Of a stretch of 64,000 nucleotides of DNA, positions 7,172 to 59,164 are shown piece by piece. A program made the translations under genes and the position numbers. The number at the start of each line of letters is the position of its first letter. Positions within the stretch are counted from its first letter, which is position 1. The stretch is from an uncultured Bacteroidales bacterium (GTDB lineage: Bacteria > Bacteroidota > Bacteroidia > Bacteroidales > UBA932). The DNA lies in the NCBI GenBank assembly GCA_944322715.1, contig CALUPT010000002.1, forward strand, positions 124,001-188,000. Reading direction: 5' to 3'. The notes beneath the pieces are model-generated. The model had not been told where the DNA came from, did not search any database, and saw only the letters and a program-made list of their open reading frames with translations.

Positions 7172-7237
7172 ATCATCCTGAACGGAGCCGCTTGTCCTGT
7201 CATCCTGAACGGAGCCGGAGGCGAAGTGAAGGATCCG
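7172..7237 (+). repeat. Dispersed hairpin repeat, one partial and one expanded-loop copy
   Basis: A partial copy (7172-7190) is followed by an expanded copy (7199-7237) in which the ATCCTGA and GAAGGAT arms flank a longer loop. These are the only copies in plus orientation, which here is the sense of the upstream MATE gene. Confidence 0.7.
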
Positions 7238-7264
7238 GAGCACCACTCCTGTTTCCCGGTCCGG

Positions 7265-7747
7265 TTACTTCTTTATGAAAGACAGAGCCTTCTCTACCAG
7301 AAGGCGTTCGCTCCCCGGAGTATAGCCCGTATGGGAATAGACTGTCTTGCCATCCGCCACAATCATAACGAACGGAATCGACGAAATGTTGAGAGACTTG
7401 GCAAGGGAGCTGTTCTCATCCGTATAGACCTCATACGGCCACATCTTCGCCTTGACAGTGGACCTTACCTTGGATGCCGAACGTGCATCATCTATGGATA
7501 TGGCCACGACACGCAGCTTGTCCGCCCATATGTCCTCTATCTCGGCGAGGGCATCCAGTTCATTCTGGCACGGCTTGCACCAGGTAGCCCAGAACGAGAC
7601 TATCACCACATCATCCTTGAGCACATCACCCATCTGGATACTGTTTCCGGAAAGGTCTTTCACAATTGCGTTAGGAGAAATCTCCTGGGCCTGACATAAA
7701 GCGGCAGCCGCCACGGCTGCTACAAGGATGGAAATAATCTTTTTCAT
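7265..7747 (-). CDS. Periplasmic TlpA-like thiol:disulfide oxidoreductase
   Basis: The 160-residue product starts with a signal peptide (MKKIISILVAAVAAAALCQA) and continues into a thioredoxin fold of the TlpA/ResA type. The redox motif WCKPC has its cysteines at residues 57 and 60, and the cis-proline loop is SIPFVMI. TlpA-like proteins reduce disulfides of periplasmic or surface substrates. It is the last gene of the leftward SusCD/metalloprotease locus, 108 bases below the preceding gene, with a weak -7 box of its own at 7817-7824. The linkage to a surface protease suggests a role in opening disulfide-bonded proteins or maintaining locus proteins; this is inference. ATG 7747 was chosen over 7768 because it directly begins the signal peptide. 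Confidence 0.9.
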   Translation of the reverse strand: MKKIISILVAAVAAAALCQAQEISPNAIVKDLSGNSIQMGDVLKDDVVIVSFWATWCKPCQNELDALAEIEDIWADKLRVVAISIDDARSASKVRSTVKAKMWPYEVYTDENSSLAKSLNISSIPFVMIVADGKTVYSHTGYTPGSERLLVEKALSFIKK

Positions 7748-7816
7748 AATACCGTTTCTATAGATCATTTGCAGTCTTTCTTTAAAAATATGCTGTCCCC
7801 ATCAGGACGACAGGGA

Positions 7817-7824
7817 CAAAAATA
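7817..7824 (-). promoter_or_regulatory. Possible -7 element upstream of the TlpA gene (TATTTTTG)
   Basis: The box matches TAnnTTTG on the minus strand, about 70 bases before the start codon, but no TTG was found at -33 spacing. It may give the last gene partly independent expression. Confidence 0.4.
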
Positions 7825-7855
7825 ATTCTTTTCCGGCAATTCCGGTACGGAAGCG

Positions 7856-9517
7856 TCAAAATACAAGCACCAGCCGGGAAAGCGCACCACCATCGGCGGC
7901 ACTCTTATAACTGCTCCTCAGCATCAGGTTCTCTTCCGGTGCCGTATCCTCATACAGCGCATAGAAATACAGAGTCAGGGCAAGATTATCCGCAGATACG
8001 GATGAAGTCCAGTAGAACCTCGTGTACAGGTCTGAATCATCAAGGAATGTCTTGTCATCCATAGATACCTTGGACATGGAACTGTTTATTGCAGCGGCAA
8101 TATCGACCCCGGTCCCTGTCCACCACATCCATACATCATTCAGCTCTCCGCCGAAAGTGCCATCCGAAGATGTCAGGGACATTCCGCAGGCCGTCCTGAA
8201 GAAATCCATCAGTTCCCCCATAGCCGGGACATACCATCCTGTCGTGACCGCATTGGCTTCAGGTCCTCCCGCTACATTGGAAAACAACTGCGCAGACCTG
8301 AACAGCGGATACTTGCCGGATGCCACATCTTCAGCCCTCTTGCTGAATATGGCACTGGTATATCCATAGCCATCCACATCGGCATCCAGAATCTCCAGGT
8401 TCTCTTCCGGAGTGTACTCGACAGAAGCCAGCACCTCAAGGCCTATGGAAGACTCATCCCTGCTGTCATTCCCCTGGGTACCGTACCATGCATAGACAGA
8501 ATTCTCTCGGGTAGAAGTCACAGTCCCGTGGACAACACCTCCGAGGGCATCTTTTGCAGCCTGACCGATCCTGTCAGGGTCTATATTGGTCACCATACCT
8601 ATCACATCCGCAGAGCTGACATCGGCGGCATCCGCATCCCTGGACAGGAGATTGCCATCAGACAGGAAAAAGTCCCCTGGCTGCAGGGTATGGTGTATCT
8701 CCGACGCCCGGCCTACAGGAATGACAACGACTTCTCCTGGCCCGACACCGGAAATGGACTGCGACCACTTCTCTCCTCCGGCAGTACCGGAAAACCCGGT
8801 CACATCGGCAGGATTGGTCTTGTAGAAATATCTTCCTCCATCGTTGAAAGGGTCTATCCCATCAAAATCGACCTGCAGCGGATTGTTGTAATCCGGAATT
8901 GCAGGAGTGTTGTCGAACACGTATGTCGTGCATTCCGGGACGAAGCATACAAGAGCGGTCTTAGGAGAAAGACATATATCTATCGAAGGTTTCCCTGTCC
9001 CGCCATCCGGATTGTACACGCCCGAGGCAGTCAGAAGGGAGGATACCCCGAAGTCTTCCGACTGGTCTGCCGCTACAGTCCATCCGGCAATCATATCCGC
9101 AAAGAATTCCTCCTCGGAGGTTGCCTGAAGATTGACTGATGCCGCATCTATTTTGCTGTCCTGCGGATAGTATGCAAAATACCTGTCCCCTTCAGTCCAG
9201 GTTATGACATCATCATCGTTCAGCGCAATATTCCAGGACCCATCCGACTCGAGCACCATCCTGAGGACCTCCACCGACCCATCTGTATGGACGATGAACA
9301 GCCCTACCGCATCCTTGGCGGCAAGCTCCATCCTGAACAGCCCGTCGAAGTCAGGATCATCGCTCGCATATCCTTCCGTCGTGATATTGAACACCGACAC
9401 ATCTGCCGTCTCCGGCACAGAGACAGGTGGAGATACCGTATCTATGGTTTTTTCGCTGCAGGCGGCTAATGCCACGACAGACATCACCGCTGCTGTTTCT
9501 ATTACTATCCTTTTCAT
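7856..9517 (-). CDS. Fimbrillin-like surface lipoprotein with C-terminal DUF1566-like module
   Basis: The 553-residue protein has a lipoprotein signal peptide (lipobox LAAC, Cys near residue 20). The N-terminal half (about 40-330) resembles the Mfa-like/fimbrillin-A family: the segments VGLFIV, WNIALNDDDVITWTEGDRYFAYYP and the later AGGEKWSQSISGVGPGEVVVIPV are typical of such beta-sandwich pairs. The C-terminal part (about 330-553) has GWYVPAMGELMDFF and RFYWTSS, the hallmark of DUF1566/Fib_succ_major-type modules. The stop of the upstream metalloprotease is 10 bases away, so they are co-transcribed. The role is not known; surface display or substrate capture for the locus is inferred. It could equally be annotated simply as a hypothetical lipoprotein. 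Confidence 0.75.
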   Translation of the reverse strand: MKRIVIETAAVMSVVALAACSEKTIDTVSPPVSVPETADVSVFNITTEGYASDDPDFDGLFRMELAAKDAVGLFIVHTDGSVEVLRMVLESDGSWNIALNDDDVITWTEGDRYFAYYPQDSKIDAASVNLQATSEEEFFADMIAGWTVAADQSEDFGVSSLLTASGVYNPDGGTGKPSIDICLSPKTALVCFVPECTTYVFDNTPAIPDYNNPLQVDFDGIDPFNDGGRYFYKTNPADVTGFSGTAGGEKWSQSISGVGPGEVVVIPVGRASEIHHTLQPGDFFLSDGNLLSRDADAADVSSADVIGMVTNIDPDRIGQAAKDALGGVVHGTVTSTRENSVYAWYGTQGNDSRDESSIGLEVLASVEYTPEENLEILDADVDGYGYTSAIFSKRAEDVASGKYPLFRSAQLFSNVAGGPEANAVTTGWYVPAMGELMDFFRTACGMSLTSSDGTFGGELNDVWMWWTGTGVDIAAAINSSMSKVSMDDKTFLDDSDLYTRFYWTSSVSADNLALTLYFYALYEDTAPEENLMLRSSYKSAADGGALSRLVLVF

Positions 9518-9527
9518 ATAAATGCTT

Positions 9528-13854: not shown

Positions 13855-13861
13855 GTCCGTT

Positions 13862-26021: not shown

Positions 26022-26070
26022 CAGATCCTTCGCTTCGCTCAGGATGACAGATTCATCGCTCAGGATGACA
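26022..26070 (-). repeat. Dispersed hairpin repeat between ilvN and ilvC
   Basis: A full copy (26022-26050) has outer arms ATCCT/AGGAT and the inner GCGAAGC core; a truncated copy (26051-26070) follows directly. Confidence 0.85.
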
Positions 26071-26416: not shown

Positions 26417-26488
26417 CAGATCCTTCGCTTCGCTCAGGATGACAGACTGCACCTCGGCTCAGATCCTTCGCTTCGCTCAGGATGACAG
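26417..26488 (-). repeat. Two full hairpin repeats between ilvB and ilvN
   Basis: Copies at 26417-26445 and 26460-26488 are nearly identical, both with ATCCT/AGGAT arms and GCGAAGC core, separated by 14 bases. They fill most of the 186-base intra-operon gap. Confidence 0.85.
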
Positions 26489-28322: not shown

Positions 28323-28350
28323 GCAGATCCTGCCATCCGTTCAGAATGAC
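28323..28350 (-). repeat. Degenerate hairpin repeat between ilvD and ilvB
   Basis: The sequence preserves the flanks (CAGATCC and CAGAATGACA) of the dispersed element but the core is diverged and the arms no longer pair fully. Confidence 0.5.
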
Positions 28351-28353
28351 ATG

Positions 28354-30749: not shown

Positions 30750-30810
30750 CAGATTCTTCGCTACGCTCAGAATGACATTCAATACAGTTTGGGCTTCGCT
30801 CAGAATGACA
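30750..30810 (-). repeat. Hairpin repeat (T-A variant) plus partial copy
   Basis: The full copy 30750-30777 has arms ATTCT/AGAAT instead of ATCCT/AGGAT, a paired change. A 5'-truncated copy follows at 30790-30810. Confidence 0.8.
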
Positions 30811-34666: not shown

Positions 34667-34694
34667 CAGATTCTTCACTTCGTTCAGAATGACA
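34667..34694 (-). repeat. Hairpin repeat between SusD and beta-helix genes
   Basis: This copy carries both compensatory variants: outer arms ATTCT/AGAAT and an A-T pair in place of the inner G-C. It lies in the 86-base gap between two co-oriented genes. Confidence 0.85.
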
Positions 34695-41894: not shown

Positions 41895-43814
41895 TCAGTC
41901 GAGGGCGGTGTAGGCGCCGCCTGCTGCCTGCGCTGCAACTATGTCGCGGACAAGGTAGTGGAGATACATCTCGAAATCGGTGTAACGGCCGTGAATGTCA
42001 ATGGTCTTGCCATCAGGATTGAGATTGCCGTCCTGGCTGAACATGGTCTCGAACCAGTCCGGAATGCCATCGCCGTCTGAATCCGTCTTGTCGTTGGCCT
42101 CGTTCTGTGTAGAAGCGGAATATGTCGGCCAGCCGCCTACAACGGACTGGGAGTCGATCATGCCTCCTGATGAAGTGCTGCCGAGAGCTGCACTTTCAGT
42201 GGTGGTCCCTTTCGGATATGTCACGGTACCTGTCTGCGCCTCATGCGCTATCCTTTTGTCCACATCATCCCTGACAATGGACGCACCGGCATATTCAATC
42301 ACAGCCGCGAATGCATCATCGGCCGAATGGGTCGTGGTATAGCATACCTGGCTGTCATCCGCCATTATCGGAAGCGGGGCATCTATTTCCCTGCCTGCCG
42401 GATCCGGCTTTCCTGCAGCTGCCGACTGCTTATGATAATAGATTCCGTCGTAATTGTCATCATTGATAGAGCCTGGATTGTTTCCCGCATAATAGTTGCC
42501 GCTCATGTAAAGTTCAGGATACGCCTCCGAAGATGAGCCGTCATCCATCTCGTGATACCAGTACGCATCCACAAAATATATTTTCTCCTTGGAGGCAGGA
42601 CCTGGCTTGTAATAGTTGCCGACAATGTTGAAATGTCCGTCCTCACCGCCGTACGTGGAATTGTCTCCCCAGTTGTATATCACATTGTTGCGGTAATCCA
42701 CGTTGCCTCTGTGGGAGCCGAGATACACTCCGTAGACCTGCGGATGGTCGATACGGGCATTGCGGCTGTCGTTGTTGGCAAGAAGGTTATGGTGGAAGGA
42801 TGCGTTGCGGCCGCCCCAGATGCCTCCGTAGCCGTGCTCATCCTTGGAATGCTTGCCGGAAAGCCTCAGGGCCTCGGCCACAGCGCACCACTGGAGGGTG
42901 AAATTCCTGTTCGCATAGAACGAGGCGACCTCATCTATCGACCATGACATTGAACAGTGGTCGATGATAATGTCGCTGCCGTATCTGCCTCCAATGGCAT
43001 CCGAACTGTCATCAAGCCCGTTCCCCTGATCCCCGAGACGGAAACGGAGGAAGCGGATGATTATATTGTCCACCTGCTCTGCAATACGTACGCTATTGTC
43101 CGCTATGCAGATACCATCTCCGGGTGCGGTCTGTCCGGCTATAGTGAGATCACCGTTCTTTATGTCAAGCCGCGACTGCAGATGAATGATTCCGGCCACA
43201 TCGAAGACTATCGTCCTCGGGCCTGACTGGTTTACCGCCCAACGGAGAGTGCCCTTGGAACCGTCATCCGCCAATGACGTAACGTGCAGAATACTGCCTC
43301 CACGGCCTCCTGCAGTGAACATTCCGCCGCCCTCAGCTCCCGGGAAGGCAAGCGGAGTCCCGGAAAAACATTCATCCTCGTATGCAGGTATCAGCATCGC
43401 CTCGTATGCTCCATCCGTCGGTTCTGGATCGGGATCCGGGTCAGTACCCGGATCGGCCGTACCCTCCGCCACTACAGGCTCCGAGGATACGAACTGGGAA
43501 TATTCCATCCCTGCCATTGCCCTGACCTTACAGGTGTAGGATGTACCGGCTTCAAGGCCTTCAAAGGTAGAGGCCGTCTCTGTCTCGTACTGGAGTTTCA
43601 CTAATTTGTCATCCTCGGTGGTAACAAGCCTTACGGTGTATTGCTCCGCACCCTGCACCTCATCCCATTCGAAAGTCAGGGCGTTGTCCGCGTTCATGGT
43701 ACAGCGGATGTTTTCCGGAGCCGGCATGACCATCCCCGTCTGGGGTTCATGCTGTGTACAGGCTGCCGGGAAAAGGGATATTCCCGGTATAAGAAAAACA
43801 AGTATCCGTTTCAT
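41895..43814 (-). CDS. Pectate lyase, PL1 family, with FN3 domain
   Basis: The 639-residue lipoprotein (lipobox AAAC) has an FN3-like domain (about 30-110) and a Pro/Asp linker (DPGTDPDPDPEPTDG), then a PL1 right-handed beta-helix starting at AFPGAEGGGMFTAGGRGG. Key landmarks are DDGSKGTLRWAV, the calcium-site IIIDHCSMSWSIDE, and SRNARIDHPQ, which carries the likely catalytic arginine. PL1 enzymes cleave homogalacturonan by beta-elimination, giving 4,5-unsaturated ends. The C-terminus includes a calcium-binding DSDGDGIPDWFE segment. It lies 63 bases below the GH105-PL1 fusion and is followed by a terminator. Confidence 0.93.
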   Translation of the reverse strand: MKRILVFLIPGISLFPAACTQHEPQTGMVMPAPENIRCTMNADNALTFEWDEVQGAEQYTVRLVTTEDDKLVKLQYETETASTFEGLEAGTSYTCKVRAMAGMEYSQFVSSEPVVAEGTADPGTDPDPDPEPTDGAYEAMLIPAYEDECFSGTPLAFPGAEGGGMFTAGGRGGSILHVTSLADDGSKGTLRWAVNQSGPRTIVFDVAGIIHLQSRLDIKNGDLTIAGQTAPGDGICIADNSVRIAEQVDNIIIRFLRFRLGDQGNGLDDSSDAIGGRYGSDIIIDHCSMSWSIDEVASFYANRNFTLQWCAVAEALRLSGKHSKDEHGYGGIWGGRNASFHHNLLANNDSRNARIDHPQVYGVYLGSHRGNVDYRNNVIYNWGDNSTYGGEDGHFNIVGNYYKPGPASKEKIYFVDAYWYHEMDDGSSSEAYPELYMSGNYYAGNNPGSINDDNYDGIYYHKQSAAAGKPDPAGREIDAPLPIMADDSQVCYTTTHSADDAFAAVIEYAGASIVRDDVDKRIAHEAQTGTVTYPKGTTTESAALGSTSSGGMIDSQSVVGGWPTYSASTQNEANDKTDSDGDGIPDWFETMFSQDGNLNPDGKTIDIHGRYTDFEMYLHYLVRDIVAAQAAGGAYTALD

Positions 43815-43844
43815 ATTATTTGTATTTATTTTCAATTCGTTCTG

Positions 43845-43873
43845 CAGATCCTTCGCTGCGCTCAGGATGACAG
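43845..43873 (-). repeat. Hairpin repeat between GH105-PL1 and PL1 genes
   Basis: Full copy with ATCCT/AGGAT arms; the triloop differs (GCA instead of GAA on the minus strand). Confidence 0.85.
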
Positions 43874-43877
43874 GAAG

Positions 43878-46340
43878 TTACAGGACATCGTTCTCCGAGT
43901 CGATGATGCCGGGTATGCCGGTTACGGACCCGCTGAAGGTCACCGTCCCTTTCCTGCACTCCCTGACTATCCTCGCATCGATGCCGTCCCTTTTCTTCGA
44001 TGCCCCGGCTCCCTTCAGTACCTTCTTGTATTCGCTGTCTATAGGCTTTGCCCGCACAGGGATACGGCAAGGGAAAGGGCTGTCTTTCGTGACCGTACGG
44101 TACAGTTCCTCATTCAGTGCAATCTTCTTGAAATCAGGTTTCTTTCCGAGATAGTTCCCTCCAATCACCGGCACGATGTCGTACCAGTTGCCGCTGATAT
44201 AGAACGAGCCTGGGATCAATGATGTCTCTTCCGAAGTGTAGATCTCCAGGTACCTTCCATCTATGTTCTTCGTGCCCTTGCCTGCCCTGAACAGATTGCC
44301 GGCAACATTGAACCAGCCTTCCTCTCCGCCGTAAATGGCTTTCATGCCCCAGTTGTAGACTATGTTGTTGACAAATTCCACGGTTCCCCTGCGGAAAAGC
44401 CTGTCATCGGCTTCATATACGGCAGGATGGTCGAATCTCGGGTTCCTGCTGTTGTTGTGGGCTATCAGGTTGTGGTGGAACGTGACATTACGTCCGCCCC
44501 AGATCCCGCCGTAGCCATGCTGTCCCTTGTGATGGACCGAACTGTTGAGAGCCTCGGAAATAATGCACCACTGGATGGTGGAATTGCTGTTGGCATAGAA
44601 GGATGCGTTCTCATCCGTAGCCCAGCTGATCGAGCAATGGTCGATGATCACATTGTCGGAATGCCTTGCCCCCAAAGCATCATCCTCATCTTTCGCCCCT
44701 GATCCCATACGGAAACGCAGATACCTGACTATCACATGGTCCGTATCTATGTACACTCCGTGGTCCCTTATCGTGATGCCTGCTCCAGGCGCCGTCTGTC
44801 CGAGAATGGAAATGTACGGGTCCTCTATTTTCAGAGTCCTGCGCAAATGGATGTCCCCTTCGACATCGAACTCGACTATCCTCGGTCCTTCCTGCTCCAC
44901 CGCCCAACGCAGGGAGCCTTCCTCTCCGCTGTCATCAAGGGTCGTGACGGTATATACCCTGCCGCCTTTCCCTCCTTTGGAATACATTCCTCCGCCCTCG
45001 GCACCGCTGAATGCCGGTTCCCTCACGACTTTTTCCTTCACTGCCTTTCCGTTCCTGATGCACAGTCCATCATAGACATAGTCGATATTGTTCAGCGCCT
45101 CGTATTCCAACGATGCCCAGATGAACGGGCCGACACCCTTGCAGTCATTGTCTATGACAGGTTCGCTCAGATAATAGGCGTAGTCCCCTGCCCTGTTCTG
45201 CTTGCCGCCGAGTCCGCCCACCGAACAGCAGGATGTCATGGATATGGTGCCGTCGGCATTCTGTCTGATGAACGTATCGACCAGCCTGCCGTACTGCTCC
45301 AGCGCGTATTCCCTCCATTCAGGAGAGAGATAGCCGCACCTCACGCCTTTGAGGGCTGCATAGACGAACATTGCGGAACATGTGGATTCCAGATAGTTGC
45401 CCTCCCTGCCGGGACAGTCGAGCACCTGGTACCACATTCCGGTCTCCGGGTCGGCATATTTCCTGACAGCCGACAGCAGATACTGCAGCTGGGAAACGAG
45501 TGTCTTCCTCCCAGAATCCTTTTTCGGAAGATAATCCAGGACATCCACCAGGGCAGCGGCATACCAGCCGTTTGCCCGTCCCCAGGCATGGTCGGACTGA
45601 CCCGTTGCAGGGTCCGCCCAGAACATGGAGCGGGACTCATCCCACGCATGGCGGAAAAGCCCTGTCTCCGGATCCCTTGTATTGCGTGCGGCCTCCACGA
45701 ACTGGCGGACAATGTCCCTGTATAGAGAGTCCCTGTCCTCCTTGGGTCCGAAACGGCGGGTATACTGTGTATAGAACGGCAGGGCCATGTACAGACCATC
45801 TAACCAGACCTGATGCGGATATATCCGTTTGTGCCAGAACTCTCCGCTCCCGGTCCGCGGCTGGGTGTCTAACTGCCTGCGTATCTCTCCGAGGACACGG
45901 CGGTATTTCCGCTCCCCTGTCATGGAATACAGGTCGAAATATATCCGGGCCGGACATATATGGTCCAGATTATAATTCTCCATCTTATATCCGAAGACCT
46001 TGCCATCGTCCGTTGCCATGGTATCGGCCCAATCCCGGACATAATCCACTGCATACGGAAGGTCATACCTGTGCGCCACATCGAGGAATGACTTGAGTTC
46101 AAGTCCCGTGGTGTAGTTCCACTTGAGTTTTCCCTGCCGCCCGTCAAGCCATGCAGCCTGCGGGTTGCGGAGCATCTCGCTCATCATCATCTTCACTGAA
46201 TACGGACGTATGTCCCCGATGAAGGCGTATTCTGCCGTATTTTCCTGTCTTTCCGCCATTGCCGGCGCCGAAAATGCATCGATGCAGGCAACCGACAGAC
46301 CGGCGAATATCAAGGTTGCGGACAATATGGTTCTTTTCAT
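43878..46340 (-). CDS. Two-domain enzyme: GH105 unsaturated galacturonyl hydrolase fused to PL1 pectate lyase
   Basis: The 820-residue protein has a cleavable-looking signal peptide (GLSVACIDAFSAPAMA). Residues about 35-430 form an (alpha/alpha)6 GH105 domain: YPHQVWLDGLYMALPF, DHAWGRANGWYAAAL and YLESTCSAMFVYAALKG match the family. From residue 443 (AFSGAEGGGMYSKGGKGG) to the end is a PL1 beta-helix with VIIDHCSISWATDE and SRNPRFDHPAVYE, the last holding the probable catalytic arginine. Lyase cleavage makes unsaturated ends that GH105 hydrolases remove, so both steps would be carried on one chain. Frame is continuous across the join, with no sign of frameshift. Controlled by the neighbouring HTCS by inference. 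Confidence 0.92.
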   Translation of the reverse strand: MKRTILSATLIFAGLSVACIDAFSAPAMAERQENTAEYAFIGDIRPYSVKMMMSEMLRNPQAAWLDGRQGKLKWNYTTGLELKSFLDVAHRYDLPYAVDYVRDWADTMATDDGKVFGYKMENYNLDHICPARIYFDLYSMTGERKYRRVLGEIRRQLDTQPRTGSGEFWHKRIYPHQVWLDGLYMALPFYTQYTRRFGPKEDRDSLYRDIVRQFVEAARNTRDPETGLFRHAWDESRSMFWADPATGQSDHAWGRANGWYAAALVDVLDYLPKKDSGRKTLVSQLQYLLSAVRKYADPETGMWYQVLDCPGREGNYLESTCSAMFVYAALKGVRCGYLSPEWREYALEQYGRLVDTFIRQNADGTISMTSCCSVGGLGGKQNRAGDYAYYLSEPVIDNDCKGVGPFIWASLEYEALNNIDYVYDGLCIRNGKAVKEKVVREPAFSGAEGGGMYSKGGKGGRVYTVTTLDDSGEEGSLRWAVEQEGPRIVEFDVEGDIHLRRTLKIEDPYISILGQTAPGAGITIRDHGVYIDTDHVIVRYLRFRMGSGAKDEDDALGARHSDNVIIDHCSISWATDENASFYANSNSTIQWCIISEALNSSVHHKGQHGYGGIWGGRNVTFHHNLIAHNNSRNPRFDHPAVYEADDRLFRRGTVEFVNNIVYNWGMKAIYGGEEGWFNVAGNLFRAGKGTKNIDGRYLEIYTSEETSLIPGSFYISGNWYDIVPVIGGNYLGKKPDFKKIALNEELYRTVTKDSPFPCRIPVRAKPIDSEYKKVLKGAGASKKRDGIDARIVRECRKGTVTFSGSVTGIPGIIDSENDVL

Positions 46341-46364
46341 TTTCTGATAATTTTTATTCTGTTT

Positions 46365-46428
46365 CAGATCCTTCGCTTCGCTCAGGATGACAGGCGGCTT
46401 CCAGTCCAGATCCTCCGCTCAGGATGAC
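46365..46428 (-). repeat. Hairpin repeat plus partial copy at the HTCS 3' end
   Basis: The full copy is 46365-46393; a truncated one (46407-46428) supplies the last codons and stop of the HTCS gene (TCA TCC TGA on the minus strand). Confidence 0.85.
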
Positions 46429-49400
46429 TGTGGGGCATCAGCTCTGTGTTCCTTTATATAGTCTGCAGGAGAGACCCCGAAATGCTTCTTGAACGAACGT
46501 GAGAAATATCCCGGATCGGAAAAGCCGACCTTGTACGAAGTCTCGGACACGGAATATTGCCCGCTTCTGAGATAATAGGTCGCCTTCTCCAGCCTGAACT
46601 CCTGTATCAGTTCCACAGGAGACTTCCCCGTCAGTCCCTTTATCTTGTTGTACATCGAGGTACGTCCCATTCCCACGTATGCGGCCAGCTGGTCCACGGT
46701 TGTCTCCGAATCCGCGACGTTCTCCTCCAGCCATCTGTGTACCCTGGCAATCAGTTCCTCATCCCTGTCGGTAATGACCACCTCTGCCGGAGCCATGCGC
46801 ACCTTGGCCTTCCTCTCCCCGCCGTCGACAGGGACTGACGATGCCATATTGGCTATTATCCGCCTCCTGCCCTCAAGCAGGTTGTCTATCCTTGCCACCA
46901 GCAGTTCCATTGTAAACGGCTTTGTCATGTATCCGTCAGCCCCGTATTTCATAGCCTTGAGATGCGTGTCGGATTCATGCTTTGCCGTAAACATTATTAC
47001 AGGTATATGGCTGGTGGAAAAATCGTTCCTTATATGGTTTATCAGTTCTATGCCATCCATTTCCGGCATCATCAGATCCGTCACTATAATGTCCGGCATC
47101 CAGGATTCGGACATCAGCTGCAGGGCTTCTTTTCCGTTGGCGGCATCCCTGACCTCGAAGCGGTTGACGAGATTGTTGTACATATAGACCCTGAGTTCGG
47201 CATTGTCCTCGACCACAAGCACCTTGACAGCTCCTTCCGGCCATGTCGGAGTGACCCTGTACTTGCTCAGTCCGTAAGATTCCGGTTCCGAAGCATCCGA
47301 GTTGAGTTCAATGAATTCGGCCGTTTCGTTTGAAAACCGGTCTCTGTCTACAGGAAGCCTTACATAGAACTCCGATCCTCCGCCCTTCTCGCTCTCGACC
47401 CAGATCCGTCCTCCGTGCATATCGGCTATCTCCTTGCAGAACGACAGGCCTATCCCGCTGCTGCCCATGCCTTTGAACGCTTCATGCGAAGCCTGGACAA
47501 ACGGTTCGAAGATAGCCTGCTGCTTCTCTTTCGGGACACCTATTCCATTGTCCTTTACCATAATGGTGAACTCCTTGTCCCCCTCGCGCCAGTAGACAGC
47601 CGCCTCAATACGGCCTCCGTCCGAAGTATATTTGAAGGCATTGGACAACAGATTGTAGACGAGGGCCTCCAAACGCATCTCATCACCCCATATCATAAGG
47701 CTGTCCACGGAATGGGTGAGACGCATCTCTATCTGCCGGTCCGCCGACATGTCCTTGAAGTCATCGTAGACACGCTTCAGCAGGTCCACGATGTCTATCT
47801 GACTCACCTTTAGCCGGATCTTTCCGCTGACTATCCGCCTGATGTCGAGCAGCTGGTTCACAAGCGTCATCATCCGTTTGGCATTCTTGTAGACCATGTT
47901 GATGCTGTATTCATTGCGGTCTCCCGCCGGAGTGTTCCGGCTTACCTCATCGATACCCCCGAGTATGAGGGTAAGAGGAGTCCGGAGTTCGTGCGATATG
48001 TTGGTGAAGAACCTGACCTTCACATCGTTGAGATCCTGTTCCATCCTGATGCCGTTCCTCAGGCGGACGGATGTGACGAACATCCTGAGCAGGACGGCCG
48101 CAAGCAGTACGGCGAGCAGCAGATACGATATCCTGGCAGGAACGGAATTCCACACGGAAGGCCGCACCCTGAGTCCAATGCTTGCCAGTTCCGGGGCGGA
48201 TGTCCCTTCTGACGGGCTGGCGGAGACTACAAACGTATATCTTCCCGGAGGGATCCCCGAATATGTCACGCTGCGGTCGGACGAACCGGTGATCCAGTCC
48301 TTGTCGTAGCCCTCGAGTCTGTAGGAATAGTTCATCTGCCCCCTCTGTCTGAAATTGAGGGAGGCGAAATCTATCCTGAAGAACGAACAGTCATGCGGAA
48401 TGTCGATCCTGTTCCCGGCCATCGGGACACGGCGGCCGTTGATACTGACACCTGAAATGACTATACGGCTGTCTTCGGGCGCATAACGGAATGAACGCGG
48501 ATCCAGCCTGTAGACATTGTTGAGAGTGCCGAAGAGAAGGGTGCTGTCTTCAAGCGCCGTGCATGTCGCTTCGCTGAACGTGGTCGGGGTGATGCCGTCG
48601 TACCTTGTATAATTGACTATGGCTCCGGACCCGCGGTTTATCCGAGAAAGGCCCCTTTCGGTGGCTATCCATATATCCGACCAGGCATCGACCGCACCAG
48701 AAAGCACGATATTGCTGGAAAGGCCCTGTGCAGTACTTATTATGTCGAACCGGGCATTCCCCTCTTCGTCGAAGAAGATCCTGTTGAGACCTCCTCCGAA
48801 CGTGCAGAGGTAGGTATTGTCATCCCTGTCCGAGAAAATGTAGATGATGTCGTTGTTACCTATGGAATGGATGTCTCCCGGTATCTTCCTTGTGGAATGG
48901 AATACGGCGGTCTCCGGACTCTGCGACGGATCGAACCAAAGCAGCCCGCCGACAGTGGCCACAAGCATCCTTCCATCCTGCATGCGGTGAAGATAACGCA
49001 CCCTGTCCCCGTATTCCACCGGATATCCAGGGAAACTGTTGTACATGTTGAGGAATTCATCCTTCTGCGGGTCCGCAAGCATCGACAGTCCCCCTCCGAA
49101 GGTGCCGACCCATATCTTTCCGTCCCCATCCTGCTCGATGGAATATACATCATTGGAACTCAACGATGATTCCCTGGCCGGATTGTGTCTGTAATGTCTC
49201 GCCGTCCATTCCTTGCCCGAAGGGGCCAGTCTGACAAGTCCATCCCCTTTGGTGCCGAGCCAGACATTGCCCTGCCCATCCTCAAAGATCGTGTATATCA
49301 CCCCGAATTCCCCGGGTATCCTGCGGCATGAGGACATGTCCGGAGAATACCGGAAAAGCTCCCTGCTCTTGGTCGCCACCCAGACATTGTCTCCGCTGTC

Positions 49401-50744
49401 CCGGAGCAATGCCCTGATCTCCGATGCGGCCAGGTTGTCATCTGACCTGACCGGAGGCCCGATCACCTCGACTTTCGGGGAAATGACGGTCACCCGTTCC
49501 AGACCTCTCTGGGCAGTGGACATCCAGAGCACCCCGGACCGGTCCACCTCGAAACATGCCACCCCGTTCATGAAACGGCAGTCCGGCTGGCTCTTGACAT
49601 TGTTGAGCGGCACTATCCTGTCATTCTCCCGGTCGTACCAGCCGAAACCGTAATTGTTCATCTTTATCCATGCCATCCCATCGTGCTCCACGACCCTCGC
49701 CAGAGAATCCGCATAATAGGACATGACATTGCGCGGATGTTCATAATGCCTGAACCTGCCCGTCCTGTCATTGTAGGAATATATGCCGGTGCGGTCGGTC
49801 GCTATCCACAGCAGTCCCCCGCTGTCAGGGAACAGGAACCTGACACGGCCCATGTCATGTCTTCTGACAGTCAGGCGCATGGATGTCGTATCCAGGCTTG
49901 CGACCGCCCCGGAACTGAATCCCATGTAGAGCCGCCTGGCATCTCCGGAGCCGGTGACGGTCATGGAAGTCAGCTTTCCCGTGCTCCCGGTCCCGAGTGC
50001 GATCTTCGGCAGCAGGCCGTCTTCCCTGTCGATTACGACCACCTCTTCCTGTCCGGCAAAATACAGGCGGTCCCCGAATTCACAGAAATGGGATATGTCC
50101 GCCTGCCGCGATACCAGGGACGGCACATCATCCTCTATGACAGCAAGTCCTGCCCCTGACACGACATAAACGGAGCCATCCGAAGTCTCATATATCTCCC
50201 TGACATCAGGACCTACGGACCCGGCTGCACCGGAAACTATCCTTTTCACCTCCAATGACGGGGCGATGCGATACAGTCCTGCCCCCTGTACGGCAATCCA
50301 GGCATTGCCCCTGCGGTCGCTATGGAAAGCCGTCACCCTGAGATTCGCTCCGGAGAAGCCTTCGAGCTCATCGGGAACGGCAACGAATTCCTCTGCCTCA
50401 GGGTCGAACCTGTACAGTCTGTAGTCGTATGTCCTGAGCCACAGATATCCGTTGGCATCTTCATCTATGGAAAGCATCCTGTTATGCGTCAGGTTGGTAA
50501 AATCGCCGGGGAGCATTATGTAGTTGACGAATGAATTGCCATCGAACCGGCTCAGTCCGTACCATGTGCACACCCATATATAGCCTTTGGCATCCTGATG
50601 TATCTCGGCAATCGAATTGTGCGGCAGGCCGTCATCCGTGGAATAATGCTCGAACACATAGTCGAACTTAGCGGTCTCCGCTTTGGAGGCCGCCGGCAGC
50701 ATCAGCAATGCAAGAAAAATTATCGTATGGCGTATGAATCCCAT
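46419..50744 (-). CDS. Hybrid two-component system sensor/regulator (HTCS) for pectin
   Basis: The 1441-residue protein joins a whole two-component system in one chain. After a signal peptide come about twelve Reg_prop beta-propeller repeats (motifs like DAKGYIWVCTWYGLSRFDG), a Y_Y_Y domain near 765-840 (YSYRLEGYDKDWITGSSDR), one membrane helix near 880, HisKA with NISHELRTPLT (His about 918), HATPase (NLLSNAFKYT, GIGLSFCKEI), a receiver from about 1174 (Asp about 1223 in VTDLMMPEMDG) and an AraC-type HTH to the end. HTCS proteins sense an oligosaccharide in the periplasm and activate the local utilisation genes. The stop codon is provided by a hairpin repeat, so the last residues differ from a typical C-terminus. 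Confidence 0.97.
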   Translation of the reverse strand: MGFIRHTIIFLALLMLPAASKAETAKFDYVFEHYSTDDGLPHNSIAEIHQDAKGYIWVCTWYGLSRFDGNSFVNYIMLPGDFTNLTHNRMLSIDEDANGYLWLRTYDYRLYRFDPEAEEFVAVPDELEGFSGANLRVTAFHSDRRGNAWIAVQGAGLYRIAPSLEVKRIVSGAAGSVGPDVREIYETSDGSVYVVSGAGLAVIEDDVPSLVSRQADISHFCEFGDRLYFAGQEEVVVIDREDGLLPKIALGTGSTGKLTSMTVTGSGDARRLYMGFSSGAVASLDTTSMRLTVRRHDMGRVRFLFPDSGGLLWIATDRTGIYSYNDRTGRFRHYEHPRNVMSYYADSLARVVEHDGMAWIKMNNYGFGWYDRENDRIVPLNNVKSQPDCRFMNGVACFEVDRSGVLWMSTAQRGLERVTVISPKVEVIGPPVRSDDNLAASEIRALLRDSGDNVWVATKSRELFRYSPDMSSCRRIPGEFGVIYTIFEDGQGNVWLGTKGDGLVRLAPSGKEWTARHYRHNPARESSLSSNDVYSIEQDGDGKIWVGTFGGGLSMLADPQKDEFLNMYNSFPGYPVEYGDRVRYLHRMQDGRMLVATVGGLLWFDPSQSPETAVFHSTRKIPGDIHSIGNNDIIYIFSDRDDNTYLCTFGGGLNRIFFDEEGNARFDIISTAQGLSSNIVLSGAVDAWSDIWIATERGLSRINRGSGAIVNYTRYDGITPTTFSEATCTALEDSTLLFGTLNNVYRLDPRSFRYAPEDSRIVISGVSINGRRVPMAGNRIDIPHDCSFFRIDFASLNFRQRGQMNYSYRLEGYDKDWITGSSDRSVTYSGIPPGRYTFVVSASPSEGTSAPELASIGLRVRPSVWNSVPARISYLLLAVLLAAVLLRMFVTSVRLRNGIRMEQDLNDVKVRFFTNISHELRTPLTLILGGIDEVSRNTPAGDRNEYSINMVYKNAKRMMTLVNQLLDIRRIVSGKIRLKVSQIDIVDLLKRVYDDFKDMSADRQIEMRLTHSVDSLMIWGDEMRLEALVYNLLSNAFKYTSDGGRIEAAVYWREGDKEFTIMVKDNGIGVPKEKQQAIFEPFVQASHEAFKGMGSSGIGLSFCKEIADMHGGRIWVESEKGGGSEFYVRLPVDRDRFSNETAEFIELNSDASEPESYGLSKYRVTPTWPEGAVKVLVVEDNAELRVYMYNNLVNRFEVRDAANGKEALQLMSESWMPDIIVTDLMMPEMDGIELINHIRNDFSTSHIPVIMFTAKHESDTHLKAMKYGADGYMTKPFTMELLVARIDNLLEGRRRIIANMASSVPVDGGERKAKVRMAPAEVVITDRDEELIARVHRWLEENVADSETTVDQLAAYVGMGRTSMYNKIKGLTGKSPVELIQEFRLEKATYYLRSGQYSVSETSYKVGFSDPGYFSRSFKKHFGVSPADYIKEHRADAPQSS

Positions 50745-50754
50745 ATTCTAAATG

Positions 50755-50815
50755 CAGATCCTTCACTTCGTTCAGGATGACAGGATTATGTCATTCCGAG
50801 CGTCAGCCGAGAATC
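50755..50815 (-). repeat. Hairpin repeat upstream of HTCS, with inverted partial copy
   Basis: The full copy 50755-50783 keeps ATCCT/AGGAT arms but has the inner pair changed to A-T. A partial copy in opposite orientation lies at 50789-50815. Confidence 0.75.
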
Positions 50816-50865
50816 CGTAAACATAAAACGATAAAGTTAATAAAAACATACCATACTTTACGCTT

Positions 50866-51942
50866 TCATTTGAATATCCTGTCCGCAAAGAACCATTTCA
50901 CCGGCACCGCCACGCCGTTCCTGTCTATTTCGGTCCCGGCATCCAGCACCCTTTCAGGAACATATTCATCGAGGTCCTTCTCCTCCAGCCGATGGCTCCA
51001 GTCCACTCTCTCCGCCTGTTCCGCCCCCGGTCCGGTCGAACCGTATTCCGCATAGTACGTTGTCCCGTGCGCATATTCCTTGCCCCAGTCGTGCCAGCCT
51101 TCCGGTCTGATATGCGCACCCATCCTGCAACCGACAAACACTGTCCTGGCATACGGTCTCCACGGCCGGCCGAGATACACCTCCGTCACCCCATCGGCAG
51201 CCACAAGGTCGCAGCCACGGAAGACATACCCGAAATCCTCATCCCCGGGGGTCGATGCCGCAGTGACATAGCTGTCCTTCTTGCTCAGTATGGTACAGTT
51301 CTCGAACCAGACAGTGGAAGCGCCGAAAATGAAATCGGTCGTTCCCTCTATCCAGCAGTTCCCGAAATACTGGTGCTGCCCCTTCCCGTATGTATATATG
51401 GTATCCTGGTTGGCAATGAACCTGCATCCGAGAAACGCCGCCCTGTCCGCATCCACTGTTATGGCACACGCCTGCGCTATCTCCCGTCCCTCTCCTGCGG
51501 AATTCTCGAACGTAATGTTCTCGGCCAGGAAGTCATCGCCGTATATGAACACCGTGGAAGTAGCCGAAGTCCCCATCGGATTGCCGTGGGAATCAGGTTT
51601 CAGGGCATAGTCATCCCATGTTATCACCGTAGTCAGGGCATCATCCCCCACCATGCGTATCTTCTGTCTGTTGGCAGGCACCGTCACCTTCTCCCTGTAT
51701 GTCCCGGGCCTTATGTATATCGTGGTCTCCTCCTTGCTGTAATACGGAACGGCATCTATGGCATCCTGGACAGTGAGGCAATCCCCCGAGCCATCCTTCG
51801 CCACCACAATGTCATATTCTCCGTGCCGGACACCCGATTCCCTGTCAGGTACGGCTGCCGATGGCCGGAGGGCCGTCATAAGACATGCCGTCACGGATAA
51901 TGCCATGCACTTCACTGCATTCGGGAAAATCATCATGTTCAT
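50866..51942 (-). CDS. Pectin methylesterase, CE8 family
   Basis: Pectinesterase hydrolyses methyl esters of homogalacturonan, which makes the chain accessible to lyases and GH28 enzymes. The 358-residue protein has a signal peptide and the CE8 beta-helix with catalytic aspartates in ANQDTIYTY and TDFIFGAS and the substrate-binding arginine in [14 protein letters not shown]; the early [17 protein letters not shown] is also diagnostic. Its ATG overlaps the GH28 stop in an ATGA junction, so the two are co-translated. No lipobox is obvious, suggesting periplasmic or secreted action. Confidence 0.95.
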
Positions 51943-53643: not shown

Positions 53644-53649
53644 CGGCCT

Positions 53650-55818: not shown

Positions 55819-55833
55819 CTGCTGAAAAATTAT

Positions 55834-55841: not shown

Positions 55842-55861
55842 CGGTCCTTAATGACAGACAG

Positions 55862-56974
55862 ATGGAAATGAAGAAGATTTTAACCGGCACAATGGCATTT
55901 GCGGCAGTTCTGGGCGGATGCACGGACATTGAAAGGGACAAAACGGGCGGAATAGTTCCGGCAACAGACGACAGGCTGTACATCCTCAACGAGGGGCAGA
56001 TGGGACTGAACAACGCAACGATAGACTTCTATGATTTCTCCGATGGGTCATATACATCGGATGCCTTTACGGCTGCCAATCCTGATGTCGCGTTCGAACT
56101 CGGAGACACAGGCAACGACATCGCCATCCACGATGGGAAACTGTGGGCGGTCATCAACGGGTCGGGCCTTGTAGAGATCATGGATGCAGCCACGCTGAAA
56201 CATATAAAGTACATAAAAATCCCGACGCCGAGGGACATCGCATTCTGCGGAGACTACGCATACGTCACCTCCTGGTCCGGAGCATACTACGGAGGAGAGA
56301 ACAGGTTGGGAGCCGTCTACAGGATAGACATCAACAGCCTTTCCGAAGCCGGTTCCATAGACGTGGGCTACCAGCCGGAGGGGATAGCAGTAGCGGAAGG
56401 GAAAATCTATGTGGCGAATTCCGGAGGAGTGACGGATGGATACGACAACAGGCTCAGCATAATAGATGCAGACAGTTTCACCCTCGAGCGCAATGTGGAG
56501 ATAGCAGCCAATATATGCGACATCGCCGTAGATGGCAGGGGTATGCTATGGATAAGTTCTCCGGGAGACTACATGTCCGTCCATTCAGGCATCTATACAT
56601 TCAATCCTACGACAGGGAAAGTCGCCGGCAAAGACATAAGGGTGTCATCGATGTATTCGAACGGAAGCCTAATCTATATTCTCGGCAATGAGAACGAATG
56701 GGACTATACGCCGGGAAGCGGCATGTTTGTGCTCACCGTGATAGATCAGGAGGGCGGGACCGTGGCCCGGACAATACTGGATCAGTCCGGAGCTGCAGAA
56801 ATTGAAGTCCCGTACGGGATATGGGCATCAGCCGATGGTGAGACCATCTTCATTTCAGACTCCGGGGACTATATCAACCCGGGGACGGTTTATATGCTGG
56901 ACTCATCCCTGAATCTTGTCCGGACTTTCTCTGCAGGGGTCATCCCGGGACATTTCGCCTTCCTGCCTGTATGA
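55862..56974 (+). CDS. BtuG-like beta-propeller surface lipoprotein (YncE/DUF5074 type)
   Basis: The 370-residue lipoprotein (lipobox LGGC, Cys20) is made of repeated blade segments such as GNDIAIHDGKLWAVINGSG, PRDIAFCGDYAYVTSW, EGIAVAEGKIYVANSGG and CDIAVDGRGMLWISS, the pattern of a seven-bladed propeller of the YncE/DUF5074 group. In Bacteroides, proteins of this type encoded next to BtuB (BtuG) bind vitamin B12 tightly at the surface and hand it to the receptor. Position directly after a BtuB-like gene supports that reading. Whether this one binds a corrinoid or another ligand is not shown by the sequence. A weak hairpin (56981-57012) follows. Confidence 0.78.
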   Translation: MEMKKILTGTMAFAAVLGGCTDIERDKTGGIVPATDDRLYILNEGQMGLNNATIDFYDFSDGSYTSDAFTAANPDVAFELGDTGNDIAIHDGKLWAVINGSGLVEIMDAATLKHIKYIKIPTPRDIAFCGDYAYVTSWSGAYYGGENRLGAVYRIDINSLSEAGSIDVGYQPEGIAVAEGKIYVANSGGVTDGYDNRLSIIDADSFTLERNVEIAANICDIAVDGRGMLWISSPGDYMSVHSGIYTFNPTTGKVAGKDIRVSSMYSNGSLIYILGNENEWDYTPGSGMFVLTVIDQEGGTVARTILDQSGAAEIEVPYGIWASADGETIFISDSGDYINPGTVYMLDSSLNLVRTFSAGVIPGHFAFLPV

Positions 56975-56980
56975 CAGCCA

Positions 56981-57012
56981 TATTCCGCCGCACCCCGGTC
57001 CGTGCCGGAATA
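56981..57012 (+). terminator. Hairpin after the BtuG-like gene, possible terminator
   Basis: TATTCCG pairs with CGGAATA, and GCAC with GTGC inside, with a two-base bulge. There is no T-run, so termination is uncertain. Confidence 0.35.
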
Positions 57013-57049
57013 CGGGAATTGACCAGAAACTCTGAAAACAAACTATGCC

Positions 57050-57772
57050 ATGAAAAAAATCGATATCGGGAACTGGAGCAGAAGACAGCAGTGGGAGCAT
57101 TTCAGCAAGCTGGGCTTCCCTTTCTACCATGTGAGCTTCTATATTGATGTGACCCAGGCCTACAGTTTCGCCAAACTGCACGGGGTATCATTCTACCATA
57201 CCATCTGCTATCTTGTCACTGCCACGATGAACGACATCGAGAATTTCAGATACAGGATACACGAGGATGGAGTATATCTGCTGGACAGATGCCATCCGAG
57301 CTTCACGGTTCTGCAGCCCGGATGCACCGAATTCCAGATAATGAACTGCCGTATGGAGGATTCGGTCGAAGAATTCTGCGCCAGGGCCGCAGCTATCTGG
57401 AAAGAAATATGCAGCAGAGGACCGCAGGAAAGGGAATTCCTGTGCGGAGACACGGACATTCCGGAAGAAGAATGCTATTTCCTGTCGTGCCTGCCATGGA
57501 TCGATGCCACAGGGATGTGCAGCGAACGTGGTCTGGATACTTCAGATTCAATTCCGAGAGTGTCATGGGGACGATATACGAGGATGGACAGAGGTGATGA
57601 CTATACCCCGAAACTGAAAGACTGGTTAGGGCTTACAGGACAGGAACATCCCGTACGGCAAGGCCGGAGACTGTGGATAAATATGACCGTGGATGTGAAC
57701 CACCGTCTTGTGGACGGATATCACATCGGGCTGTTCTCCACCCTTCTCCAGGAGACCATCGACCGCCTTTAG
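57050..57772 (+). CDS. Chloramphenicol acetyltransferase-family (CAT-fold) acyltransferase
   Basis: The 240-residue protein has the CAT layout: an early KIDIGNWSRRQQWEHF, FYHTICYLVTATMN near residue 48 and a C-terminal HRLVDGYHIG. The last contains the catalytic HxxxDG (His with Asp-Gly four residues on), so the acetyltransferase centre looks intact, although the usual preceding His is Asn. CAT-family enzymes acetylate chloramphenicol, but many chromosomal members act on unknown substrates and resistance should not be assumed. It is a cytoplasmic protein in the same orientation as the BtuG-like gene, 75 bases on. Converges with the CYTH gene with a 17-base gap. Confidence 0.85.
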   Translation: MKKIDIGNWSRRQQWEHFSKLGFPFYHVSFYIDVTQAYSFAKLHGVSFYHTICYLVTATMNDIENFRYRIHEDGVYLLDRCHPSFTVLQPGCTEFQIMNCRMEDSVEEFCARAAAIWKEICSRGPQEREFLCGDTDIPEEECYFLSCLPWIDATGMCSERGLDTSDSIPRVSWGRYTRMDRGDDYTPKLKDWLGLTGQEHPVRQGRRLWINMTVDVNHRLVDGYHIGLFSTLLQETIDRL

Positions 57773-57789
57773 GCCTCTGGCAGCCAAAG

Positions 57790-58410
57790 TCACTGATTGT
57801 CAGACCGATCGTACCGGGAACTATTTCCGTCCCGAAAACGGTCATGATTCGGGACAGGTGCGTCCATCCACTTCGTACAGGGGCATTCGGACAGCATCGA
57901 ATTGTAATAGCGGCTCTCTCCGGTGACCTCCTCACCGAGCCAGACCGGCCGGCAGAACCTTTCATCCTCGCTTCCGAGCTCTATCTCCGCCAGCACCAGT
58001 CCTGCATTGTCTCCGTGGAACACATCCACCTCCCAGATTCTCTCAGGGCCATCTGCATGGAGGCATCCCCCGAAAAAACCGGTTCCGCCGTCCTGCACGG
58101 TACCGGAATCCGGCGCCGATGCCGGCACAATATACCTTGTCTTGTCTATGACCCCTCCCTGGCACAGGGTCAGAAGCTGACGGGCATCCTCCACAGGAAT
58201 CTCCTTTTCCCATTCCATACGGCTCATCCCGCTGTCCGAACTCCGTCCCTTGATGGTAAGATACGCCCTGTCATCCGCAATCCTGACCCTGACGGTCCTG
58301 CCGCTCTCCCTGCAGATGTATCCCTGCACAAGATGATGAGACTCCACGGCCTCAGCCCTGAAGCCGTCATCCTTCACCAGGAACTTTCTCTCTGTCTCTA
58401 CACCTGTCAT
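57790..58410 (-). CDS. CYTH-domain protein (triphosphate tunnel metalloenzyme family)
   Basis: The 206-residue protein starts with the CYTH signature ETERKFLV and continues RTVRVRIADDRAYLTIKGRS, the tunnel-lining basic and acidic residues of triphosphatase/adenylate cyclase class IV folds, ending with WEVDVFHGDNAGLVLAEIELGSED. Bacterial members hydrolyse tripolyphosphate or have unassigned activity. A Gly/Ser-rich insert near residues 95-120 and a basic polar tail (NHDRFRDGNSSRYDR) distinguish it. It lies 89 bases below nadD on the same strand; the pairing has no known functional meaning. Confidence 0.85.
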   Translation of the reverse strand: MTGVETERKFLVKDDGFRAEAVESHHLVQGYICRESGRTVRVRIADDRAYLTIKGRSSDSGMSRMEWEKEIPVEDARQLLTLCQGGVIDKTRYIVPASAPDSGTVQDGGTGFFGGCLHADGPERIWEVDVFHGDNAGLVLAEIELGSEDERFCRPVWLGEEVTGESRYYNSMLSECPCTKWMDAPVPNHDRFRDGNSSRYDRSDNQ

Positions 58411-58499
58411 TTTTCCAATATTGTTTATATTACAATGTCGGCCGTATGATAACCGGCATATCCATCCTGCTGTATGACAAGGGATTGTTCCCGGAGCCG

Positions 58500-59123
58500 C
58501 TACATCAGATAGGCAGAGGCATCTATTCCCGCCGCGAAGGCCGCCCGGAGTTCGGAAGACGAGATGTCCACCACAGGGGCATCCTCCATCAGCGTTATCC
58601 TATAAATGCCATTGTCCGGACGGGCGCTGCCGGCATCCGGCCCTGCAGCCGGAGTCTGCACCGCCGGTTGTACGCATTCGGCCATCAGATCCGCCCTGAT
58701 CCTGGACATATCGTATCCCTTACGCGGATAGACCGCCACACCATAGTCCGAAAGTATCCTCCCGTAATCCCTCCAGCGGCGGATATCCGCCAGATTGTCA
58801 GCCCCGAGCACAAAAACGAACGTGTTGTCCGGCTCCCTGGCCGCAAGGGCATCGAGAGTCCTTATGGTATATTGCGGAGCAGGCATTTCGAGTTCGATGC
58901 CATCCACCCTGACTTTCAGCTCGGGATGCCGCGCGACCGCCTCTACGGCAGCCTCATATCTTTCACTGCCCGTGTCGGCGCTCACGGTGTCCTTGATAGG
59001 GTTCTTCGGAGAGACCACAAGATACACCATGTCGAAACCCATATCTTCCGTCAGGTATCGCATTATCGCCAGATGCCCTATGTGGAGAGGGTTGAAAGAC
59101 CCCGAATATACCGCTATTCTCAT
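58500..59123 (-). CDS. nadD: Nicotinate-nucleotide adenylyltransferase
   Basis: NadD adenylylates nicotinate mononucleotide in NAD synthesis. The 207-residue protein opens IAVYSGSFNPLHIGHLAIM, the nucleotidyltransferase motif with HxGH, and ends with ISSSELRAAFAAG, matching the ISST-type motif. Between them VYLVVSPKNPIK is typical of NadD. It follows gmk after 59 bases that contain one hairpin repeat, and is likely co-transcribed with gmk. Confidence 0.95.
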   Translation of the reverse strand: MRIAVYSGSFNPLHIGHLAIMRYLTEDMGFDMVYLVVSPKNPIKDTVSADTGSERYEAAVEAVARHPELKVRVDGIELEMPAPQYTIRTLDALAAREPDNTFVFVLGADNLADIRRWRDYGRILSDYGVAVYPRKGYDMSRIRADLMAECVQPAVQTPAAGPDAGSARPDNGIYRITLMEDAPVVDISSSELRAAFAAGIDASAYLM

Positions 59124-59136
59124 ATAACTTCCGTAT

Positions 59137-59164
59137 CAGATTCTTCGCTTCGCTCAGAATGACA
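59137..59164 (-). repeat. Hairpin repeat between gmk and nadD
   Basis: Full copy with ATTCT/AGAAT arms and GCGAAGC core. Confidence 0.85.

Follow-up and report, generated by a model that had tools for sequence, protein, structure and literature searches.

A TGTC-tagged intergenic hairpin of Bacteroidales as a predicted recognition site of stand-alone GIY-YIG nucleases

Of the palindromic repeats described from bacterial genomes, the closest to the element considered here are the repetitive extragenic palindromes (REPs) that carry a CGTC tag. These repeats apparently lack a dedicated transposase, and their CGTC-1 form is equated with the dRS3 repeat of Neisseria (Di Nocera et al. 2013, PMC3733652). 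The present element is a TGTC-tagged hairpin dispersed between genes of an uncultured Bacteroidales bacterium (NCBI GenBank assembly GCA_944322715.1, here G000, 99% complete), analysed from a window of 64,000 nucleotides (contig CALUPT010000002.1, positions 124,001 to 188,000). It is interpreted, with a probability of about 0.72, as a REP-type DNA hairpin predicted from sequence to be the single-stranded DNA recognition site of a stand-alone GIY-YIG nuclease, the copies in G000 looking orphaned. This reading names a candidate enzyme partner for CGTC-type REPs and for the wider TGTC hairpin.

Copies, spread and pairing of the hairpin

An earlier note on the window had listed nine full copies together with partial ones, had described four combinations of the third outer pair with the inner closing pair, and had taken these paired changes to mean that the fold is under selection. 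All nine copies are present on the minus strand, with ends no more than 1 bp from those it gave; the four combinations are all found in the window, and partial copies exist, many of them tandem half-units upstream of a full hairpin. A search of the window with a typed consensus matched eight of the nine (no match in 100 dinucleotide shuffles), the copy at 34668 departing from it at four positions and hence falling outside the eight. Across the assembly, a pattern in which GTC, the loop G and A and the closing C-G were fixed and the variable pair columns were left as N gave 80 exact copies (none for the reversed pattern) and 89 copies at up to one mismatch (one for the reversed pattern).

Among the 80 copies, columns c6-c22 form Watson-Crick pairs in all 80 (column shuffles: mean 42.6, maximum 60) and c11-c17 in 79 (mean 45.4, maximum 57); c8-c20 is nearly invariant (78 of 80, shuffle mean 76.1), and c7-c21, paired in 80 of 80, is invariant and thus uninformative. 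The copies comprise 17 distinct sequences, and the paired changes within G000 are mostly inherited haplotypes, reflecting shared ancestry as much as selection. Because copies were inherited as blocks, paired changes inside one genome are not in themselves proof of selection, and to this extent the earlier argument has to be given up; its conclusion that the fold is maintained is strongly supported by the wider alignments. Twenty-nine further phylum genomes, represented by one copy each, gave Watson-Crick pairs in 29, 29, 26 and 26 cases at four pairs, and in viral contigs, which hold at least 159 copies, the corresponding counts are 153, 151, 148 and 147 of the 159 listed. Outside G000 the third pair can also be G-C, and both the inner and the fifth pair C-G, and pairing is kept in 90-100% of cells across the other phylum genomes and the viral-contig copies listed. 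With the genome and its relatives scanned for copies and their pairing tested, co-variation holds in G000, in the 29 phylum genomes and in the viral contigs.

The pattern is present in 27 of 61 members of the genus, at 1 to 79 copies each; with free columns, 119 of 296 phylum genomes have it. In a species-wide collection, the records among the 120 stretches listed are titled as at least about twenty phyla; most of these records are metagenome bins, and single phylum titles may be wrong. Isolates carrying the repeat belong to Edaphobacter, Mucilaginibacter, Pedobacter, Hymenobacter, Calothrix and Helicobacter. In related species, gaps that match those of the window are in some cases occupied by full, decayed or tandem copies, and in two of these species (L365 at 6263, L366 at 5850) the upstream gene uses a TGA within the hairpin as its stop codon. 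Clean empty sites were not found, the nearest hairpin-free relatives being too diverged for exact junctions.

A transcribed RNA element lying between the cistrons of operons and acting in processing, stability or protein binding, with selection on the RNA keeping the fold, is an unlikely explanation of the repeat. A helix maintained as RNA is expected to use G-U pairs often, yet the 636 pair cells of the viral-contig copies listed contain 6 G-T pairs and 31 other mismatches, such that G-T is not enriched. Predicted RNA folding energies of two variants (-7.0 and -2.7 kcal/mol, z -1.3 and -0.04) are modest and ordinary. The loop is GNA, with any base at N. When G000 was scanned more loosely, requiring two GA and Watson-Crick pairs only and leaving loop letters, loop length and inner pairs free, 80 hairpins with a loop of three were recovered, along with five with a loop of four and three others. 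Sheared tandem GA in DNA follows a Py-GA-Pu rule, and Py-GA-Pu is present on each arm in 80 of 80 G000 copies and in 135 of the 159 viral-contig copies listed. Two papers describe DNA minihairpins with GNA loops, and d(GCGAAGC), as extraordinarily stable (PMC10527192; PMC6479982, citing Yoshizawa 1997), a 2-bp DNA minihairpin being tabulated at 76.5 C (PMC10527192). Given that G-T pairs are not enriched and that the loop is GNA, a DNA fold fits better than an RNA fold, and the hairpin is most likely maintained at the DNA level. An intrinsic terminator was also considered and rejected, as there is no T run (the tail is CTG in most copies) and the predicted fold is weak.

Stand-alone GIY-YIG genes beside tagged hairpins

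The candidate partner is a stand-alone GIY-YIG nuclease of about 95 amino acids, encoded hard by hairpins in unrelated bacteria. When 2121 open reading frames (ORFs) from 299 hairpin-bearing loci were clustered, two of the 40 clusters listed had four loci all near hairpins, namely a viral-contig family and the GIY-YIG family; recurrent viral-contig neighbours (large ORF clusters) were taken as structural genes by size and context, without annotation, and were set aside. A GIY-YIG profile (A1) run over the same 299 loci detected five genes, each within 36 nt of a hairpin against a background of 15% of ORFs in hairpin loci, four of the five being those that first drew attention to the family. 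In other genomes, two species of the genus among them, this hairpin is found 0-36 nt from a small GIY-YIG gene, and several of these genes have it at either end in inverted orientation. Two genus species, G027 (locus L618) and G024 (L619), have the gene between two inverted hairpins of the window's type at 1-19 nt. Proteins similar to that of L618 bear Bacteroidales names, which points to Bacteroidota as the phylum. Residues Y8, Y19, R29, H33, E66 and N85, which we take to be the catalytic landmarks of GIY-YIG enzymes, are invariant in 11 of 11 sequences, and the nearest solved relatives are the UPF0213 proteins 1zg2 and 1ywl.

The association was also measured from the protein side, at 33 loci chosen by protein and comprising 12 of 36 plasmid records (picked for genus variety), 14 of 15 viral contigs (one with a partial match being left out) and seven of eight genus loci (the eighth being left out). 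A hairpin tagged [CT]GTC lies within 150 bp of the GIY-YIG gene in 21 of these 33 loci, and on both sides in 19. Under the same rule, hairpins accompany 8 of 92 genes for Y1 (HUH) transposases, 1 of 19 ORFs of uvrC loci and 3.1% of shuffled flanks; a further control, ORFs away from the gene in GIY-YIG loci (1 of 5), is too small for use. A looser rule accepting any base before GTC gave 22 of 33 (shuffles 5.7%), or 25 of 37 with four hairpin-picked loci added; the uvrC control then stood at 1 of 23, mostly with one flank visible as the gene runs off the locus, and the controls listed above add ones with both flanks. Phage-borne relatives had a tagged hairpin in none of five cases. Elaborate arrangements occur at single loci: in Pedobacter (L203 4673-5520), repeated hairpin dimers with fixed 14-nt tails surround a GIY-YIG gene, and in Azospirillum lipoferum (L652 701-994), sufB and sufC are separated by a GIY-YIG gene that CGTC hairpins flank at either end, an arrangement that looks like an insertion into the suf operon.

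Different branches of the GIY-YIG family carry different hairpin classes, as expected for an enzyme and its substrate. The GNA plus GA/GA class accompanies species of the window's phylum, an Acidobacteriota isolate, a cyanobacterial plasmid and a viral contig; the GCGGG class, the dRS3 form, is found in Neisseria, Aeromonas, Azospirillum and others; the GGCTTGACC class in rhizobia, sphingomonads and two genus members; and a fourth class in two further genus members. In two members of the genus (L617, L620), a second GIY-YIG subfamily with a KHFKREWK motif is flanked by a different, CGTC-type hairpin. On a tree of 37 proteins, hairpin class changes 10 times, compared with a shuffled mean of 21.8 (0 of 200 shuffles as low). 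This result has limits: the class patterns were written after the hairpins were seen, the label of L656 is uncertain, and near-copies contribute to the clustering. The tree also bears on the possibility that the GIY-YIG genes are cargo homing into pre-existing hairpins spread by other means. Many genes do lie between two whole hairpins, and the Azospirillum unit sits between two suf genes, but class clusters on the protein tree, with several classes beside their own branches, and this explanation is improbable. Mobilization by a Y1 (HUH) transposase, as for REPs with a REP-associated tyrosine transposase (RAYT), is very improbable: the dispersed imperfect palindromes, 5' tag and inverted partners resemble such elements, and the single copy in G058 is about 0.8 kb from a Y1 gene (taken as chance), but G000 gave no Y1 match, the tag is TGTC and not GTAG, and while 20 of 24 hairpin-rich genomes have a Y1 match, the hairpin occurs in 1 of 50 Y1 stretches examined (L071-L120) and in 10 of the 62 Y1 stretches from the genus, where a single G042 gene enters the count twice, a share judged near copy density. 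A Y1 partner was sought in G000, in 60 members of the genus and in 34 genomes rich in the hairpin, and was rejected.

As proposed for the GIY-YIG nuclease, a strand that becomes exposed would allow the hairpin to fold, and the enzyme would bind fold and tag and cut beside the hairpin. Repair of the cut would then copy the hairpin to new places or duplicate it locally. Variants that still fold would remain substrates, leading to paired changes, and half-units that end at the start of the core or within it look as if copying may stall there.

Apparently orphaned copies and their orientation between genes

Several observations weigh against the nuclease as partner. We know of no strand-joining chemistry of the HUH kind in GIY-YIG enzymes, and the cutting, binding and movement attributed to the nuclease are predictions. 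No stand-alone GIY-YIG gene was found in the G000 assembly, where the search gave one match, uvrC; the 80 copies therefore look like orphans of an enzyme that was lost or never held. The gene is likewise missing from 4 of the 10 remaining copy-rich members of the genus. Within the genus, the gene is present in 6 of 11 genomes with at least 13 copies and in 2 of 50 others (Fisher p 2e-4), a threshold picked after the counts were seen, and with a threshold of at least one copy the difference (6 of 27 and 2 of 34) is not significant. Among the six copy-rich genomes with the gene, the adjoining hairpin is of the window's class in G024, G027 and G028 and belongs to other classes in G011 and G019, the G037 locus being outside the comparison; it is because the window's class adjoins the gene in just three of six that confidence is held to the level given above. 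Twelve of the 33 protein-chosen loci have no tagged hairpin by the [CT]GTC rule, namely eight of the 14 viral loci and two each of the 12 from plasmids and the 7 from the genus; nor does the one new GIY-YIG locus from a second viral scan. Py-GA-Pu is kept on the two arms in just 19 and 18 of the 29 other phylum genomes. Finally, the strand preference described below forms a second layer that the nuclease does not explain. A separate observation is that a full hairpin lies directly beside uvrC in G000 (G000:C5:94530-94833, L623), possibly by chance.

Between co-directional genes, 65 of 67 G000 copies are in sense orientation, as are 19 of 22 in G633, 15 of 17 in G596 and 4 of 4 in G395 and G672. 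The sum for this clade is 103 sense and 7 antisense (65+19+15+4 and 2+3+2+0), compared with 52 and 45 outside it (36+4+2+3+0+0+1+1+5 and 31+7+1+3+1+1+0+0+1), where 157 copies from many phyla contribute 36 sense (S-S) and 31 antisense (A-A). Excluded from these sums are copies located within called ORFs, those at the end of a locus and those whose neighbouring genes converge or diverge; in G000 this applies to nine copies inside ORFs in sense, three inside ORFs in antisense, four between convergent genes and one at an end. A stricter fold with another overlap rule gave 61 S-S and 3 A-A in G000. Extra loci, de-duplicated by genome, gave 9 S-S and 0 A-A in the clade (the G596 and G633 rows among them being left out of the clade sum) and 5 S-S, 1 A-A and 6 antisense inside ORFs in others.

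The near-exclusive sense orientation in the window's clade speaks for an RNA element, as does the finding that orientation tracks the genes even for copies on a contig's minority strand (15 S-S, 2 A-A), which also led to the rejection of replication-strand bias as the cause. Against an RNA element, the bias is absent outside the clade, and the distance of copies to stop or start codons is not fixed in G000. The lock could stem from selection on RNA or from insertion into the strand exposed by transcription. Of the roles suggested in the earlier note, protein binding points in the right direction, while RNA processing is the weaker reading because there is no strand preference outside the clade, G-T is not enriched and a nuclease gene is adjacent elsewhere.

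Half-units show a local polarity. In G000, a same-strand half-unit lies within 60 nt before 44 of 80 copies and after 7 of 80, those before the copy ending just ahead of the core or inside it; in other phyla 11 of 149 copies are preceded by one. Tandem arrays of 5' halves lead to one full same-strand hairpin at several loci (L299 1351-1482, L311 1454-1551 and 2849-2946, L274 1421-1518, L214), each unit measuring about 18-25 or 34-36 bp and the spacer being particular to the locus. In G000, G633 and G596, most of the 13 tetraloop variants are antisense (8 A-A, 3 S-S, 2 other), several having a sense triloop copy nearby. Antisense GNNA or similar tetraloops near a sense triloop (L274 1539, L294 1603, L297 1573, L446 1498, L450 1454, L461 5558) form pairs that resemble REPIN heterodimers.

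A broader proposition, for which the odds appear about even, is that GIY-YIG nucleases and their own YGTC hairpins constitute a second, HUH-free kind of REPtron across about twenty phyla and the partner system of CGTC-type REPs, and that in the window's clade the hairpins outlived the enzyme and became strand-locked operon elements. If the nuclease reading is true, a GIY-YIG route joins the ways in which small palindromes fill bacterial genomes, which would help to explain nearly identical stretches of 27 letters in unrelated bacteria, and the sense-locked clade would exemplify, in nature, the incorporation of such repeats into operons.

Copies in the window and relation to known repeat systems

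The features of the window are collected in Table 1. The ORF that overlaps the copy at 34668 probably has its start called too far upstream. The genes around the copies at 43846, 46366 and 50756 (window 41895-51942), which encode a GH88 protein, a hybrid two-component regulator, a pectinesterase and an fn3 protein, resemble part of a pectin-degradation cluster. Searched at the Rfam gathering score, the whole window matched a tRNA alone, leaving the hairpin without a family. The earlier remark that the translation HPERSEG turns up in spurious proteins was not borne out in the literature searched, where neither this string nor long motif strings occurred, and of six 13-letter pieces of the motif one was found, in one unrelated cattle paper.

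Table 1. Full, partial and decayed hairpin copies in the window
Feature	Position	Strand	Context
Full hairpin, TGTC-ATCCT-GA-GC-GAA-GC-GA-AGGAT-CT	26023..26049	-	ilvN/ilvC gap
5' half-unit, TGTCATCCTGA	26060..26070	-	Upstream
Full hairpin	26418..26444	-	ilvB/ilvN gap, second of direct pair
Full hairpin	26461..26487	-	ilvB/ilvN gap, first of direct pair
Decayed copy, 3 differences from pattern	28325..28351	-	
Full hairpin, third pair T-A, loop GTA	30751..30777	-	
Half-unit, TGTCATTCTGAGCGAAGCCCAAA	30784..30810	-	Upstream
Full hairpin, third pair T-A, inner pair A-T	34668..34694	-	Inside first codons of called ORF
Full hairpin, loop GCA	43846..43872	-	
Full hairpin	46366..46392	-	Orthologous gap in four related species (L365-L368) also with full or decayed copies
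Full hairpin, inner pair A-T	50756..50782	-	
Antisense 5' half copy	50789..50799	+	Adjoins full copy
Full hairpin, third pair T-A	59138..59164	-	Downstream of guanylate kinase gene

The GTAG REPs and RAYTs that form REPtrons share with the proposed system a folded and tagged strand, an irregularity in the stem, recognition of one strand and an enzyme gene flanked by the repeats, and differ in having an HUH enzyme and a GTAG/GTRG tag in place of the proposed GIY-YIG enzyme and TGTC, a Y1 partner of the window hairpin not having been found (PMC6006769, PMC8266576). The UPF0213 proteins are small and of one domain and are the sole solved sequence relatives found, the comparison being one of sequence alone and not of hairpin context. 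The CGTC REPs share an unpaired CGTC tag that is often TGTC, a stem starting with AT, dispersal between genes and inverted dimers; they differ in a loop of 4-5 nt on a stem of 8-9 bp, as opposed to five outer pairs, GA/GA, two pairs and a 3-nt loop, and in a CCA tail where the window's genome has CTG (PMC3733652). In the 80 G000 copies, the base before GTC (itself set by the pattern) is T in 76, C in three and A in one, and ATC is followed by TG in 70; in 8 of 29 other phylum genomes it is followed by CA (ATCCA). Neisseria reportedly possesses a stand-alone GIY-YIG enzyme, Ssn, whose cleavage site in single-stranded DNA lies within dRS3, although a report of it was not found in the literature searched; its system involves another hairpin class and other phyla than the window hairpin. 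Like the CGTC REPs, the window hairpin is dispersed between genes and has no RAYT partner, and CGTC-form hairpins adjoin GIY-YIG genes in Neisseria, rhizobia and Azospirillum, as the window hairpin does in other genomes.

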